Assembly (NCBI GenBank): GCA_947630725.1
Contig: CANRIS010000007.1
Span: 26,200 to 90,199, forward strand
Origin: an uncultured Clostridia bacterium
Lineage (GTDB): Bacteria; Bacillota; Clostridia; Lachnospirales; CAG-274
Length of the DNA: 64,000 nt
Reading direction: 5' to 3'
The notes beneath the pieces are model-generated. The model was not told where the DNA came from. It made no database searches and saw only the letters and a program-made list of their open reading frames with translations. This document shows positions 3,403 to 11,282 of this stretch, in pieces (positions within the stretch are counted from its first letter, which is position 1; each line of letters starts with the position of its first letter). A program made the translations under genes and the position numbers.

Positions 3403-3858
3403 ATGTTATTTAGCTTATTAAACGGCGAGCTTAACGGAAGCCTTGCAGGGGCTGCCGAGGCTGTTACAAAAGCGGCAACTTCGGCATCGGGAAATGCGGC
3501 TCCCGCAAGAAGCGGCGGCCTTGGACCTATGTTCTGGGTGTTCTATATTGTATGTCTTGTTGCGCTTTTCTACTTTTTTGCCATAAGACCCAATAAAAAA
3601 CGTGAGCAGGAAAGACAGACCCTCCGCGAGGGAATAAAGCTTGGGGACTGGGTAGTTACCACAGCCGGATTCTATGGCAAGGTAGTAAATATATACGCAG
3701 AAGAATTTATGATAGAATTTGGCACAAACAAGGGAATAACCATACCCGTAAGAAAAGAAGAAGTCGTTGGCGTAAAGGAGCCGGGACTTGCCAACGAGCC
3801 TGCTCCTGTTGAGGTTGAGGATACTCCCAAAAAGAGAAAGTTTGGTCTTTTCAGATGA
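3403..3858 (+). CDS. yajC: Preprotein translocase subunit YajC
   Basis: Single TM followed by FFAIRPNKKREQERQTLREGIKLGDWVVTTAGFYGKV, the YajC signature. ATG 3403 preferred over GTG 3394 because ggagtg gives an RBS. Confidence 0.93.
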   Translation: MLFSLLNGELNGSLAGAAEAVTKAATSASGNAAPARSGGLGPMFWVFYIVCLVALFYFFAIRPNKKREQERQTLREGIKLGDWVVTTAGFYGKVVNIYAEEFMIEFGTNKGITIPVRKEEVVGVKEPGLANEPAPVEVEDTPKKRKFGLFR

Positions 3859-4769
3859 TAGACGCTGCTCTTTTGGGAACGGGAGGTATGATGCCTCTGC
3901 CGAACAGATGGCTTACGTCTCTTCTGGTGAGATATAACGGAAGAATGATACTTCTGGACTGCGGAGAGGGAACACAGATAACCGCAAGACTTCTCGGCTG
4001 GGGATTCAAGAATATTGACTGCATACTTATTACACATTTCCACGCAGACCATATTTCGGGACTGCCGGGAATGCTGCTGACAATAGGCAATTCCGACAGA
4101 ACCCGGCCCCTTACGATAATAGGCCCAAGAGGGCTTAAGCCGGTGGTGGAGGGAATGCGTAGGATCGCCCCCGAGCTGCCCTTTGAAATAAGGCTTGTGG
4201 AGACTGACGGAAACGGCTTTGAAACAGAGATCATAGGACTTAACGTAAAGGCAGTCAGGCTCAACCACAGAATACCCTGTCTGGGATATTCCTTCGAGCT
4301 TTCCCGAAAGGGAAGATTTATGACGGAAAGAGCCATAGAAAACGACATTCCTCTGAAATACTGGTCTATGCTCCAAAAAAATGACAGAGTAGAGGCTGAG
4401 GACGGCAGAGTTTTTACGAGCGATATGGTTCTCGGGCCCGAAAGAAAGGGAATAAAGCTGTGCTATACCACCGACACAAGACCCACGGAGGGTATTGCGG
4501 AATTTATAAAGGGAGCGGATCTCTTTATCTGCGAGGGTATGTACGGAGACCCCGAAAAGCTTAAAAGCGTGGAAGAAAAAAAGCATATGCTGTTTTCGGA
4601 GGCTGCGTCTCTCGCAAGATCGGGAGGTGTAAAGGAGCTGTGGCTTACCCACTATAGCCCTGCTCTCACAAATCCCAAAGCAGAGCTTTTTCATGCCAGA
4701 AATATTTTCAAAAATACGAAGGCTGCTCATGACAGATTTTTAAAAACCCTCAGATTTGAAGACGAATAA
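3855..4769 (+). CDS. rnz: Ribonuclease Z / MBL-fold
   Basis: LLGTGGMMPLPNRWLTSLLVRYNG, THFHADHISGLPG; overlaps the yajC stop. Confidence 0.9.
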   Translation: MIDAALLGTGGMMPLPNRWLTSLLVRYNGRMILLDCGEGTQITARLLGWGFKNIDCILITHFHADHISGLPGMLLTIGNSDRTRPLTIIGPRGLKPVVEGMRRIAPELPFEIRLVETDGNGFETEIIGLNVKAVRLNHRIPCLGYSFELSRKGRFMTERAIENDIPLKYWSMLQKNDRVEAEDGRVFTSDMVLGPERKGIKLCYTTDTRPTEGIAEFIKGADLFICEGMYGDPEKLKSVEEKKHMLFSEAASLARSGGVKELWLTHYSPALTNPKAELFHARNIFKNTKAAHDRFLKTLRFEDE

Positions 4770-4808: not shown

Positions 4809-4956
4809 AAATTTATTTTATATACATAAGCTTTCTGTTCAGACAGAAAGGCGGTTTTTGCGTATATATTTATAAGGCTGAGCTTATAAAAATAAACATT
4901 TGCATAGGCTTTAAGCGATTTGATAGGCGCATCCTTAAGATAAGGCAGGTGATAAG

Positions 4957-5529
4957 GTGACGGAGGATATCTGCAAAATGACCGATATTGAGGTTGTGCA
5001 GTCGGTACTCAAAGGAAACAAGGACGATTTTGAAGAGATAATAAAGCGATATAAAAATCTCGTTTTTGCCGTTATACACAGAATGACGACCGACTATGAG
5101 GAGGCAAACGACACGGCTCAGGAGGTTTTTATAAAAATATATAAAAATCTTGACAAATATAACAGCGAATACAGGTTTGCCACGTGGATAATAAAAATAA
5201 CGACAAATTATATTATAGATAAAAGACGGCGGAAAAAATACGAAATTGTCCCCATAGACGATATCGACTATGAGCTTTCGGGCGGCAGCACGCCTGAAGA
5301 AAGCTATATAGAAAACGAGAGAAAAAACGAGCTTATGAAGCTTATAGACGGACTGCCCCAAATGTACAGAGAACCTCTGCTTTTGTATCACAGAGACGGT
5401 CTGAGCTATCTCGAGATCGCCGACAGAACGAACGAATCCTTATCCAAGGTGAAAAACAGGATATTCAGAGGACGAAAAATACTGAAGGAAAGTCTTATGA
5501 AAGAGGGTGAAGGACATGGATTGCTTTGA
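4957..5529 (+). CDS. ECF-family RNA polymerase sigma factor
   Basis: Sigma region 2 (FEEIIKRYKNLVFAVIHRMTTDYEEANDTAQEVFIKIYKNLDKY) and region 4 (MYREPLLLYHRDGLSYLEIADRTNESLSKVKNRIFRGRKIL); GTG start with upstream aggtgata. Confidence 0.92.
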   Translation: MTEDICKMTDIEVVQSVLKGNKDDFEEIIKRYKNLVFAVIHRMTTDYEEANDTAQEVFIKIYKNLDKYNSEYRFATWIIKITTNYIIDKRRRKKYEIVPIDDIDYELSGGSTPEESYIENERKNELMKLIDGLPQMYREPLLLYHRDGLSYLEIADRTNESLSKVKNRIFRGRKILKESLMKEGEGHGLL

Positions 5530-5782
5530 TGCGGGAATTTTAATGCTTAAGGAGCTTGAAGGAACATCCGCCGAAAGAGAGAGGGAGGTTCTGGCGGCGC
5601 ATTTGCTGACGTGTCCGGCATGTATGAGACACTATAAATATCTGAGAAACGCAGTTTTCGGTGATGAGAACGAAAAACTCCAGACTCGGATACCGGTGGA
5701 TTTTGAAGTTCAGGTAATGACAAAAATTAGATATGTAAACGCCGTAACGGTCGTGACAACGAAGGTGAATAAAATAAAATGA
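5516..5782 (+). CDS. Zinc-finger (ZAS/zf-HC2-like) anti-sigma factor lacking a transmembrane segment
   Basis: AAHLLTCPACMRHYKYLRNAV matches HxxxCxxC; overlaps the sigma gene 3' end; C-terminus ends ...VTVVTTKVNKIK with no hydrophobic helix. Confidence 0.75.
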   Translation: MDCFDAGILMLKELEGTSAEREREVLAAHLLTCPACMRHYKYLRNAVFGDENEKLQTRIPVDFEVQVMTKIRYVNAVTVVTTKVNKIK

Positions 5783-7665
5783 AGCTTATAGACGGAATAA
5801 TTAAAAACGACACCGAACTTATAAAAGAGGCTCTCAGAGAAGACCCCAAATGTGTGAACAAAACACAGGACGGTCTGTGCGGCGCATTTTATGCCGCAAG
5901 AGGCGGAAATATGGAGATAAACAAGCTTATGATAATAAACTCAATGACAAGCTACAATGTTCTTGACGACAACAGAAGAAGCGTTTTGTTTTATGCTGTG
6001 GAATCGGGAAACCCCGAGCTTTGCAGATATATTGTGGAAAGAGTGGGTCATTCTCCTCTTGCAGCCGACAAAAACGGAATAACCGCCTTTGAATATGCCC
6101 ACGAGCTGGGGAAAAAAGAGGTTCTTGAATACTTTGAAGAATACTGCGGATTCAAGTATGAGGAGGGGTACAAAAATCCCGTAAGGAGAGGCTTTTATCC
6201 CGATCCCTCCATAGTGAGAGTGGGAGACGACTATTATATGGTAAACTCCACCTTTGTATATTTCCCGTGTATACCCATATCCCATTCAAAGGATCTTGTT
6301 CATTGGGAAATAATCGGCCACGCCATAACGAATCCCGACTGGGCGGAGCTTGAGGGACTTGACGGCGGCAGAGGATATTGGGCGCCCGATATATCCTATT
6401 ATAAAGGAAAGTTCTATATATGCGCCACCTACAGAAACAACGACAACGAAAAAATTGTAAGAAAACAAATGGTAACGAGATCAGACAGACCCGAAGGGCC
6501 ATATGAAAAGCCCGTGTTTATTGAGGTCGATGGAATAGACCCCTCCATTTTCAATGATGACGACGGAAACAGATATATGCTGCTGAACAGGGGGGCGAGC
6601 ATATTTAAGCTGAGCGATGACGCAAAGGAAAGGACTTCGGAGGTTTCGCTTTTGTATTACGGTGATAACAAGAGAGCGCCCGAAGGCCCTCATATTCTCA
6701 AAAAGGACGGCTGGTATTATCTCTTTCAGGCTGAGGGCGGCACAGGCCCCGGTCATATGATAAGCGTTTCGAGGAGCAGAGAGCTTTTCGGGGTATACGA
6801 AAGATGTCCCTACAACCCCATAATGACATACAGAGAAATTTTCAATCCCTACATAAGGCGCTGCGGCCACGGAAAACCCGTACAGACCGCTGACGGAAGA
6901 TGGTTTATTTTTTATCTGTGCGGCAGACTTCTGGACGGCAGGTATACCGTTCTGGGCAGAGAAACCTGCGTTGACGAGCTTGAATGGACTGCTGACGGCT
7001 GGCCTGTCATAAACAAGGGCAGAGGAGCGAGCGCATTTTCAAAGATGCCCCTCATATCCTCCGACAGCGTATGCAGAGACGAAATAAAGGACGACTTTGA
7101 CGGCGATGAGATAGGCTGCGAATGGTACAGTCTGAGAGGCAGAAAGGCCGAGACATTCGGTCTTGATAACAGCAGGCTTATTATAAAGGGCGATAGCTGC
7201 GGCCTTGATTCAACAAAATGCTCAAGTGTTCTTCTCCGCAGACAGGAAAGCTTTGCTTTTGAGGCAGACACCGTGGGCAGGTTCAGTCTCAGAGAGGGAG
7301 GCAGCGGCGGACTGACCTGTTATTATGACGAATACAGCTATTTTACGTTCGGCGTTACCCAAAAGGACGGAAAAAATTATGTCGAAATATGGGAAAAGGC
7401 AGGCTCCGATCTCAAAAAAAGCTTTTATAAAAAAACGGACAAAAAAGAATTTAAATTCGGCGTAGTTACCGAAGGGCTTAAGAGAAGTCTTTATCTTAAC
7501 GATGAGCTTGTATATACAATAGAAGATTCCTCTTATCTGAGCGATGAGGGAGTCAATATGGGAAAACGCTTTACCGGGGCAATGATGGGAGTGTTCTGCA
7601 CAGGCGAAGGCTCCGAGGCGGCTTTTGACTATTTCCGCACAAAGGTGCTGCCGTTCAGAGAGTAA
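5779..7665 (+). CDS. Ankyrin-repeat / glycoside hydrolase family 43 fusion protein with C-terminal beta-sandwich, cytoplasmic (no signal peptide)
   Basis: Residues ~1-125 are ankyrin-like (SVLFYAVESGNPELCRYIVERVGHSPLAADKNGITAFEYAHELGKKEVLEYFEE). GH43 motifs follow: RGFYPDPSIVRVGDDYYMVNSTF, GYWAPDISYYKGKFYI, DPSIFNDDDGNRYMLLN, APEGPHILKKDGWYYLF. Start ATG overlaps the anti-sigma stop (ATGA). Confidence 0.88.
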   Translation: MKLIDGIIKNDTELIKEALREDPKCVNKTQDGLCGAFYAARGGNMEINKLMIINSMTSYNVLDDNRRSVLFYAVESGNPELCRYIVERVGHSPLAADKNGITAFEYAHELGKKEVLEYFEEYCGFKYEEGYKNPVRRGFYPDPSIVRVGDDYYMVNSTFVYFPCIPISHSKDLVHWEIIGHAITNPDWAELEGLDGGRGYWAPDISYYKGKFYICATYRNNDNEKIVRKQMVTRSDRPEGPYEKPVFIEVDGIDPSIFNDDDGNRYMLLNRGASIFKLSDDAKERTSEVSLLYYGDNKRAPEGPHILKKDGWYYLFQAEGGTGPGHMISVSRSRELFGVYERCPYNPIMTYREIFNPYIRRCGHGKPVQTADGRWFIFYLCGRLLDGRYTVLGRETCVDELEWTADGWPVINKGRGASAFSKMPLISSDSVCRDEIKDDFDGDEIGCEWYSLRGRKAETFGLDNSRLIIKGDSCGLDSTKCSSVLLRRQESFAFEADTVGRFSLREGGSGGLTCYYDEYSYFTFGVTQKDGKNYVEIWEKAGSDLKKSFYKKTDKKEFKFGVVTEGLKRSLYLNDELVYTIEDSSYLSDEGVNMGKRFTGAMMGVFCTGEGSEAAFDYFRTKVLPFRE

Positions 7666-8720: not shown

Positions 8721-11282
8721 ATGAAAAGAAAAATAGCTTTACTTTTAGCATTGGCTATGACAGCTTCAATGCTTCCAGTAAACGCCTTTGCTACTTCATC
8801 AAACGAAGTAAACAAAGTAGTTTCTGTTAAGGACGAAGATTCCGTTGATGGCGTATTCTTAAAGATCACTCCCAGAGAAGAAGTATCAAGCGGCGACTCT
8901 ATCGTTCTTAGATTCACCAACTCAGAGGTTCAGCCAAGAGAAGTACTTGAGGCTAACGGTTTCGAGAACTTCGTTAACTCCACTTTTGAGGATGACTTTA
9001 CTTATGAGTATGCCATGGAAGAATTCCAGAGCTACTATCATCCTCAGGACGAAAGCTCAGCTTCTCAGAAGTTAGCTATGGAAGATGCCTGCAAAACTGT
9101 ATTTACACAACTTTGGGGAAATACAAATGATGCATATCTTCCTTGGAAGCTTGAAAGAAACGGCAAGTCTCAGATTACAGTAAGACTTTTCCCCATTTCT
9201 GCAACAATGAGCAACAAAAAGGTTGGTTCGTTATTGCCTTCAAACCAGGAAGCTATTCCTCACTACTACATTCCTCTTCTTGTAAATGCTGACGGCGAAG
9301 GCGACATGACAGTTGCTATCGAGGCTAACGAGACAACTCTTACTGACAGCACACTTACATTTGCTAAGAGCACAAATGACAGCGGCGCTACAGTTACTAC
9401 AGTTGACGAAGTTCAGGACTTCAACGAAAGCCTTACATTAAGCGATGCTAACGGTAATGCAATCAGAATCGAAGAGACTGTTGCAGGTACATTCGAGAAA
9501 GGTACTCTTACAATCAGAATCAACGGCGGTTTCGTATTTGCCGGAACAGGCAGTGACATCGTTGTAGCTGGCGCTAAGAATGATCCTAAGTTCACTGTTG
9601 GTACAAAGACAGTAACAGATTCTAAGATCGAAATCGAATTTACTGAATTCCAGGAGACAAAGAAGGCTTCAGCTATCACCATCTCCGGTATCACAATTGA
9701 ACCCGATGACGAAGACGACGACTGGGGAGTTGTAAACTTCACATTCAGAGGCATCGGTATGACAGGCGAGACAATCCAGGTTGCTAACAGAGCTGACTAT
9801 GGTATGAGCCTTACACTTGATGAAGAAGCTACATCTATCTTTACAGGTTTCTCATATCCTGAAGATTCTGACCTTGACGAAGATGATTTCCTTACAGCAT
9901 ATGCTCACGTAGAAGAGACAATCGCTGACACATGGAACTCAAAGCAGAAGCTGTACTTCAAGCTTCCCGAAGGCGTTAAGATCATAAGCTTCGAGACAAA
10001 GGATCTCAAGAATATGGATTCAGCTGTATTTGACAAGGCTTACCTTACAGACGGCGGTTCTACACTTGTAGTAACAAGAACAAACGAGCTTACATCTGTT
10101 GAAAACAACAAGGTTCACAATGCAGTAAATCCTGACGAATGCTCAGAATTCGACATCAGATTCAACGTAACAATCGACCCCGCATTCGGCGACAACGACA
10201 TCACACTTTCAATGTATGGTGCAGGCGTTGAAGAAGGCGCTATCAGCGATCTCGTTATAGCTAAGGCTGTTACACCTATCACAGTAGCTACAGAGACAAC
10301 AAAGACAAACATTGGTTATTCAGCTATCGAGACAGCTGACATCACTATCACAGAGAACGCAGCAGGCGCTCTTAGAGATGACAGAGACGTTGTTCTCAGC
10401 ATAGATACACTTTGGACACTCGGCGACATCGGTTTCGATACAGACGACACAGCAGCAGAGGCTACAGGCGAGCTCGAAATCGGCAAGCTTAAGGGAACCA
10501 GCGGAACAATCACAATCCCCGTTGAGAAGATGTCCTACACAACACCCGGTTCAATAACAGTTTCTAACGTATCTGTTGGTACATCAAGAAGCGTACCTTA
10601 CGGCGACTATGATCTTAAGGTTATGGGCGGTGCTGTAATCAACAACTATGATGATACAACAAAGGATGACTATAAGACATCTACAATGCCCAGAGACGGC
10701 GCTCTTGTAAGGACAATCAGCGTAAATGATAAGAATGGCGAAAAAGAAGAGAAGAAGAGCGACTATACATTCGTATGGACTCAGGACAACACAGAGAGCT
10801 ATGACTTTGCTAAGTATCTCTCAGTTGGTACTCTCACAGGTACACTTGACAAGAAGGTTAGCGTAACAATCGGCGAGACAACTATCACTGTTGACGGCGA
10901 AGCATACACAATGGACGTAGCTCCTTACATCCAGGTATCTTCAAACAGCACAATGGTTCCTCTTCGTTTCGTATCACTTGCACTCGGTGTAGACGCTGAG
11001 GCAGTTGCTAACGGCAGCACAGACGAAACATCCACAATCACATGGGATGCTAACACAAAGACTGCTACAATCTTCTACGCTTCAGGTTCAGGCCAGAAGA
11101 TCATTCAGTTCACAGCAGGTTCAAACGCAATGGTAGTTGACGGAACATCTGTTCCTATGTCATACGGCGTAGTTGCTGAGATCACTGACAGCAGAATGTT
11201 CGTTCCTTTCAGAGCACTTGGTACAGCACTCGGTGTAGTAGTTGACTGGGATGAAACAACAAGAACAGCTACTTACAACTAA
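8721..11282 (+). CDS. Secreted, probably abundant cell-surface protein with C-terminal copper amine oxidase N-terminal-like domain
   Basis: Signal peptide MKRKIALLLALAMTASMLPVNAFA. C-terminal repeats MVPLRFVSLALGVDAEAV...ITWDANTKTATI and FVPFRALGTALGVVVDWDETTRTATYN. Strong RBS aaggagg. Confidence 0.85.
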   Translation: MKRKIALLLALAMTASMLPVNAFATSSNEVNKVVSVKDEDSVDGVFLKITPREEVSSGDSIVLRFTNSEVQPREVLEANGFENFVNSTFEDDFTYEYAMEEFQSYYHPQDESSASQKLAMEDACKTVFTQLWGNTNDAYLPWKLERNGKSQITVRLFPISATMSNKKVGSLLPSNQEAIPHYYIPLLVNADGEGDMTVAIEANETTLTDSTLTFAKSTNDSGATVTTVDEVQDFNESLTLSDANGNAIRIEETVAGTFEKGTLTIRINGGFVFAGTGSDIVVAGAKNDPKFTVGTKTVTDSKIEIEFTEFQETKKASAITISGITIEPDDEDDDWGVVNFTFRGIGMTGETIQVANRADYGMSLTLDEEATSIFTGFSYPEDSDLDEDDFLTAYAHVEETIADTWNSKQKLYFKLPEGVKIISFETKDLKNMDSAVFDKAYLTDGGSTLVVTRTNELTSVENNKVHNAVNPDECSEFDIRFNVTIDPAFGDNDITLSMYGAGVEEGAISDLVIAKAVTPITVATETTKTNIGYSAIETADITITENAAGALRDDRDVVLSIDTLWTLGDIGFDTDDTAAEATGELEIGKLKGTSGTITIPVEKMSYTTPGSITVSNVSVGTSRSVPYGDYDLKVMGGAVINNYDDTTKDDYKTSTMPRDGALVRTISVNDKNGEKEEKKSDYTFVWTQDNTESYDFAKYLSVGTLTGTLDKKVSVTIGETTITVDGEAYTMDVAPYIQVSSNSTMVPLRFVSLALGVDAEAVANGSTDETSTITWDANTKTATIFYASGSGQKIIQFTAGSNAMVVDGTSVPMSYGVVAEITDSRMFVPFRALGTALGVVVDWDETTRTATYN

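Follow-up and report, generated by a model that had tools for sequence, protein, structure and literature searches.

The question raised by this locus is why a glycosidase fused to ankyrin repeats is encoded in one operon with an ECF sigma factor and an anti-sigma, and what such a module would sense and control. In the window, by which we mean the entire 64-kb stretch of DNA analysed, three overlapping genes at 4957-7665 on the forward strand form this operon, as the sequence-only reading had described it. The first gene (4957..5529, +) encodes a SigW-like ECF sigma factor of 190 aa. The second (5507..5782, +) overlaps the sigma gene and encodes a soluble zinc-motif anti-sigma of 91 aa if translated from the GTG at 5507 or, more likely, of 88 aa from the ATG at 5516 (MDCF...). 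The third (5779..7665, +), the start of which overlaps the anti-sigma stop as ATGA at 5779, encodes an ankyrin-GH43-GH43_C2 protein of 628 aa. The order of sigma, short anti-sigma, and ankyrin-GH43 is identical in seven of the nine genomes of the genus, that is, in all seven in which the locus is assembled; in the other two, the contig breaks within the GH43 gene (G021) or the sigma gene (G018). Because the order is kept in 7/9 genomes, the operon is not a chance arrangement. A metallo-beta-lactamase (RNase Z-like) gene (3855..4769, +; Lactamase_B_2) lies 5' of the sigma gene wherever the contigs of the genus extend that far and also in the sister genera, making it a syntenic anchor. In a single genome of the genus (G020; L093, 5454-5982), genes for a ferredoxin-thioredoxin reductase beta-like protein and a thioredoxin are found between this anchor and the sigma gene.

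The sigma factor matches Sigma70_r2 (61.3 bits) and Sigma70_r4_2 (51.1 bits), both above the Pfam cut-off, and is an ECF sigma factor by definition in that it possesses regions 2 and 4 only and scores 106.2 bits against TIGR02937 (cut-off 42.9). Its best matches among NCBIfam models are the two SigW equivalogs, both of which remain below their cut-offs (125.4 vs 209 and 101.8 vs 243.1). The protein is 55-58% identical to its counterparts in g10 and g3, two sister genera within the family, and the segment LSK(V/I)KNRIFRGR in region 4.2 is common to the sigma factors of this genus and the sister genera.

The important remark of the sequence-only reading is that the anti-sigma is soluble; it had noted a zinc-finger motif and no membrane helix, and both observations hold. 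H-x3-C-x2-C, a class I ZAS feature, spans helices 2 and 3 with H32, C36, and C39 invariant in the genus, and the zf-HC2 match reaches 21.5 bits with a Pfam cut-off of 22.2. Together with C6, these residues make up four possible zinc ligands, all conserved and all shared with the membrane-anchored relatives. The structural model is a three-helix bundle (pLDDT 82-94 over residues 1-50) followed by a C-terminal helix of low confidence. No transmembrane segment was found, the highest 19-residue Kyte-Doolittle mean being 0.73 in the window protein and 0.64-0.73 in the genus; in the anti-sigmas of the sister genera it is 2.04-2.36. All seven genus anti-sigmas are 91-102 aa long and lack a hydrophobic segment, and all eight from g10 and g3 are 187-191 aa long with two such segments. 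The g10 and g3 loci have the metallo-beta-lactamase, sigma, and anti-sigma genes as in this genus but no GH43 gene 3' of them. Beyond the family, 27 of the 28 related loci with a readable anti-sigma encode a membrane-anchored protein of 169-204 aa; in the 28th (L250), a frameshift, either an assembly error or real, lies just before the membrane half, which sits in another frame. We considered that a frameshift might also account for the short form in the genus and rejected this, as all seven genomes have the short form with 49-56% identity to the window protein. In the alignment, the genus anti-sigma stops at the start of the first membrane segment of its relatives, and the ankyrin-GH43 gene begins there. 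Because the related loci in the sister genera and across the class encode anchored anti-sigmas, the membrane-anchored form is most simply taken as the ancestral state and, judged from the aligned proteins, the genus anti-sigma no longer has the membrane half, with its two helices, that is present in related proteins. Of note, conservation is high (0.88) in the genus-specific tail of the anti-sigma, residues 75-85, but not in the linker before it (0.42).

In the third protein, the ankyrin part comprises residues 1-125 (5779..6153, +) and matches Ank_2 in two stretches (60.7 bits vs a cut-off of 27.3), the GH43 catalytic domain comprises residues 131-409 (6169..7005, +; Glyco_hydro_43, 264 bits), and a C-terminal concanavalin A-like domain, GH43_C2, comprises residues 437-621 (7087..7641, +; 102.7 bits), confirming the earlier description of ankyrin repeats joined to a full GH43 enzyme. 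The model of the protein (pLDDT 90, pTM 0.90) consists of four ankyrin helix pairs (residues 2-21, 35-54, 69-89, and 103-123), then the GH43 blades, and then the C-terminal sandwich. Because the first ankyrin helix of this model begins at residue 2, there is no leader ahead of the repeats, in agreement with the initial assignment of a protein lacking a signal peptide. The catalytic carboxylates D142 (6202-6204), D254 (6538-6540), and E302 (6682-6684) are invariant in 27 fusions. Among solved enzymes, the nearest carry the names beta-xylosidase or arabinofuranosidase; BlXynB-type structures (6ms2, 6ms3) share the GH43 and C-terminal domains at 41-42% identity and a TM-score of 0.93 by target length but are without the N-terminal ankyrin part, and no ankyrin-GH43 structure was among the top Foldseek matches listed. 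Based on domains and retained active-site residues, the third protein is best explained as a catalytically competent cytosolic glycosidase.

Ankyrin-GH43 fusions extend far beyond this operon. Full-length or nearly full-length fusions are present in 13 further genomes in a class-wide sample of 391; the family adds two more, and the genome collection contains nine in other clostridial lineages. In the tree, one branch (99/99) separates the fusions from their nearest single-domain relatives, and the genus fusions, seven in all, make up a single clade (100/100). The neighbourhood comparison proposed in the sequence-only reading links ankyrin-GH43 to a neighbouring sigma gene in 7/7 loci of the genus and in 0/24 outside it, 20 of these 24 having at least 2 kb of upstream sequence; outside the genus, this result goes against the supposed partnership. 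Moreover, the ankyrin part is less conserved than the GH43 domain to a similar degree in the sigma-linked genus (0.62 vs 0.84) and in the sigma-free family f20 (0.57 vs 0.83); this likeness, seen in few sequences, does not point to an added constraint on the ankyrin part from contact with a sigma factor. The ankyrin part is best explained as a trait of the enzyme lineage that was not invented for this sigma factor, and the earlier proposal that it contacts the sigma or anti-sigma finds no support in these comparisons. Several fusion loci outside the genus adjoin genes for ABC permeases, a GDSL esterase, other glycosidases, or an altronate dehydratase plus an oxidoreductase of the mannitol-dehydrogenase family, and such neighbours of sugar uptake and sugar-acid catabolism fit a cytosolic hydrolase that would act on imported pectin-type oligosaccharides. 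Of the suggestion that the cytosolic GH43 may hydrolyse or bind imported oligosaccharides and act as a sensor, the hydrolase part fits, and the sensor part is not supported. Most other genera of the family (L013-L032) have a single-domain GH43, ~45% identical, that is absent from this genus; because of this absence, the fusion may be the only enzyme of that GH43 clade in the genus. We found no description of an ankyrin-GH43 lineage in Clostridia in the open-access literature searched, in which papers combining ankyrin and GH43 are almost all fungal genome surveys.

As for what the module would control, a predicted SigW-like promoter for the sigma operon, AGAC-N16-CGTATA (4841..4866, +), is the only match in the 64-kb window and is conserved 5' of the sigma gene. 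Sites of the form A[A/G]AC-N16-CGTATA occur ahead of 5/6 sigma genes in the genus and 6/8 in the sister genera, the means for shuffled sequences being 0.05 and 0.04, respectively; similar boxes are found 5' of most related sigma genes across the class. The genome has 12 r4_2 matches, and from the motif in its own promoter we infer that this sigma factor is the one among them that reads the motif. A demonstration of the regulon by genome-wide counts was attempted and rejected, as neither AAAC-N16-CGTATA nor ARAC-N16-CGTATAT was in excess over mirrored controls; the motif is short. Because of this shortness and the lack of genome-wide over-representation, only sites kept before orthologous genes were used. 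By this measure, 9/9 genomes of the genus have the motif 141-162 bases 5' of mcsA, a gene of the mcsA-mcsB(-clpC) operon, as opposed to 0/16 in other genera (shuffled means ~0.05), and the spacers between the two conserved boxes of these sites have diverged; the mcsA-mcsB-clpC operon was followed as far as clpC in one genome (G000). It is also found 5' of the gene for a Zn_peptidase_2 (YugP-type) metallopeptidase in 7/9 genus genomes, with an extra ORF in between in an eighth, 5' of htpG in at least four genus genomes, and 5' of ftsH in one. In sister genus g10, sites of a stricter motif lie 5' of the sigma gene as well as of genes for a SHOCT-like protein (three genomes) and a PspC protein (two genomes). 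At one locus (L098; G024), the sigma gene is without the motif, yet mcsA, the metallopeptidase gene, and htpG of that genome have it. Three genomes also had recurring matches close to araA; these were discarded, as they fall within the coding region of the regulator gene that lies 5' of it.

Because the anti-sigma is soluble and the motif is found in a genus-specific manner 5' of mcsA-mcsB-clpC, in addition to the metallopeptidase and htpG sites, an envelope-type sigma module seems to have been rewired toward cytosolic protein quality control. Our working hypothesis, which we hold to be probable, is that this locus houses an autoregulated ECF module of the SigW type, rewired in this genus to cytosolic protein quality control, and that ankyrin-GH43 is a recruited, co-expressed enzyme. 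Specifically, the anti-sigma would hold the sigma factor in the cytosol until a cytosolic signal of protein or thiol damage, acting on the zinc domain or on turnover of the anti-sigma, releases it; the freed sigma factor would then raise expression of its own operon and of the McsB/ClpC, HtpG, and metallopeptidase genes. A feed-forward loop could arise through removal of the anti-sigma by ClpC. The ankyrin-GH43 gene, from an enzyme lineage that would elsewhere process imported oligosaccharides of pectin or hemicellulose, would have been recruited behind the truncated anti-sigma gene, so that its product would now be made together with the stress sigma factor. A co-expressed cytosolic enzyme is the most likely role of ankyrin-GH43 and is favoured over that of a dedicated sensor. 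Counting against this explanation, a sugar enzyme inside a protein-stress operon is without evident rationale, and the strict linkage of ankyrin-GH43 in 7/7 genomes hints that the protein is more than a passenger.

An alternative is that ankyrin-GH43 would be a regulator that replaced the lost membrane sensor, with the ankyrin part binding the soluble anti-sigma or the sigma factor and ligand binding or the state of the ankyrin-GH43 protein freeing the sigma factor in response to a cytosolic cue, not necessarily a sugar. The loss of the membrane half and the arrival of ankyrin-GH43 coincide at one spot in 7/7 genomes, the anti-sigma and GH43 genes are coupled by ATGA, the anti-sigma tail is conserved while its linker is not, and ankyrin repeats usually bind proteins. 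We nevertheless regard this role as unlikely, because the fusion is far wider in distribution than the sigma link, the ankyrin part is not extra conserved in the genus, and the GH43 catalytic residues are retained. Still less probable is a more specific arrangement, in which an ankyrin-glycosidase, as a separate protein bound to the anti-sigma, took the place of the membrane half, turning a membrane-tethered envelope-stress switch into a cytosolic proteostasis switch of three proteins that joins carbohydrate status and protein quality control. The idea that GH43 senses imported arabino- or xylo-oligosaccharides and thereby lets the sigma factor switch on carbohydrate genes as its regulon draws on the ties of the enzyme lineage to sugar uptake elsewhere and on a pectate lyase gene 2 kb 5' in the window; it appears highly improbable given that the genes with conserved predicted sites serve protein quality control and not carbohydrate use, that the araA-region match in three genomes falls within a neighbouring regulator gene, and that the fusion has no sigma link outside the genus. 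The predicted targets and the sigma-free distribution of the fusion likewise disfavour the original conception of the enzyme as a carbohydrate sensor.

The nature of the signal can be considered separately and in a manner compatible with the rewired, quality-control module that we favour. The soluble anti-sigma might act like RsrA or RshA, in which case zinc and thiols would open upon oxidation. The protein is soluble and short with C6, H32, C36, and C39 conserved; among class I anti-sigmas, ~35% are soluble, and zinc motifs are over-represented among the soluble ones, which often sense redox (PMC7406223). The SigH/RshA regulon takes in Clp protease and heat-stress genes (PMC3489674), and genes for a thioredoxin-reductase-like protein and thioredoxin adjoin the sigma gene in G020. 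On the other hand, these thioredoxin neighbours occur in one genome only, the motif matches did not include a thioredoxin promoter, the RsrA equivalog model scores 18.5 bits on the anti-sigma vs a cut-off of 62.5, and the membrane-anchored relatives share the four residues, so that the motif is no proof of redox sensing. We therefore entertain redox sensing as a tentative possibility.

Like SigW/RsiW of Bacillus subtilis, which responds to envelope stress, the genus module has a sigma factor best matched by SigW models and a predicted CGTA-type promoter with autoregulation; the sister genera keep a membrane anti-sigma, and their motif before PspC and SHOCT-like genes recalls yvlABCD, in which YvlC is a PspC protein. 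The yvlABCD operon is a SigW operon in B. subtilis (PMC3498285). Unlike RsiW, the genus anti-sigma is without a membrane part, and RsiW-style intramembrane cleavage cannot apply; moreover, the predicted targets are McsAB-ClpC, the metallopeptidase, and HtpG, and the ankyrin-GH43 gene has been added. With SigR/RsrA and SigH/RshA of Actinobacteria, which respond to thiol and heat stress, the module shares a short soluble H-x3-C-x2-C anti-sigma and Clp/quality-control targets, here predicted; it differs in that the sigma factor is of another lineage, derived from membrane-anchored relatives, and in that no thioredoxin target was found. We know of no ankyrin-GH43 gene in SigR/RsrA or SigH/RshA systems. 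By the tests made, the genus module does not fall in the SigR/RsrA family, and we infer that it would work similarly. Finally, the mcsA-mcsB-clpC order (G000) resembles the CtsR-controlled ctsR-mcsA-mcsB-clpC operon of Firmicutes, except that no ctsR was seen ahead of mcsA in 25 genomes of family f1 and that the promoter in the genus is predicted to be of the ECF type. A CtsR profile search gave no match in 48 f1 genomes, which is a weak absence as the control also missed B. subtilis.

The ECF sigma factor, the anchoring of its anti-sigma, and the predicted targets thus differ together between related genera at one chromosomal spot, which makes it testable how a sigma module shifts its input from the envelope to the cytosol and whether, in Clostridia without a visible CtsR, an ECF sigma factor can come to control ClpC/McsB. 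The locus also reveals a widespread lineage of ankyrin-GH43 enzymes in Clostridia. Regarding its surroundings, a pectate lyase with CBM77 is encoded at 29-2830 of the window, ~2 kb 5' of the operon, and the organism is equipped for pectin. At 8721-11282, an 853-aa protein with a C-terminal copper amine oxidase N1-type domain is encoded; several genomes of the genus retain this gene 3' of the operon.
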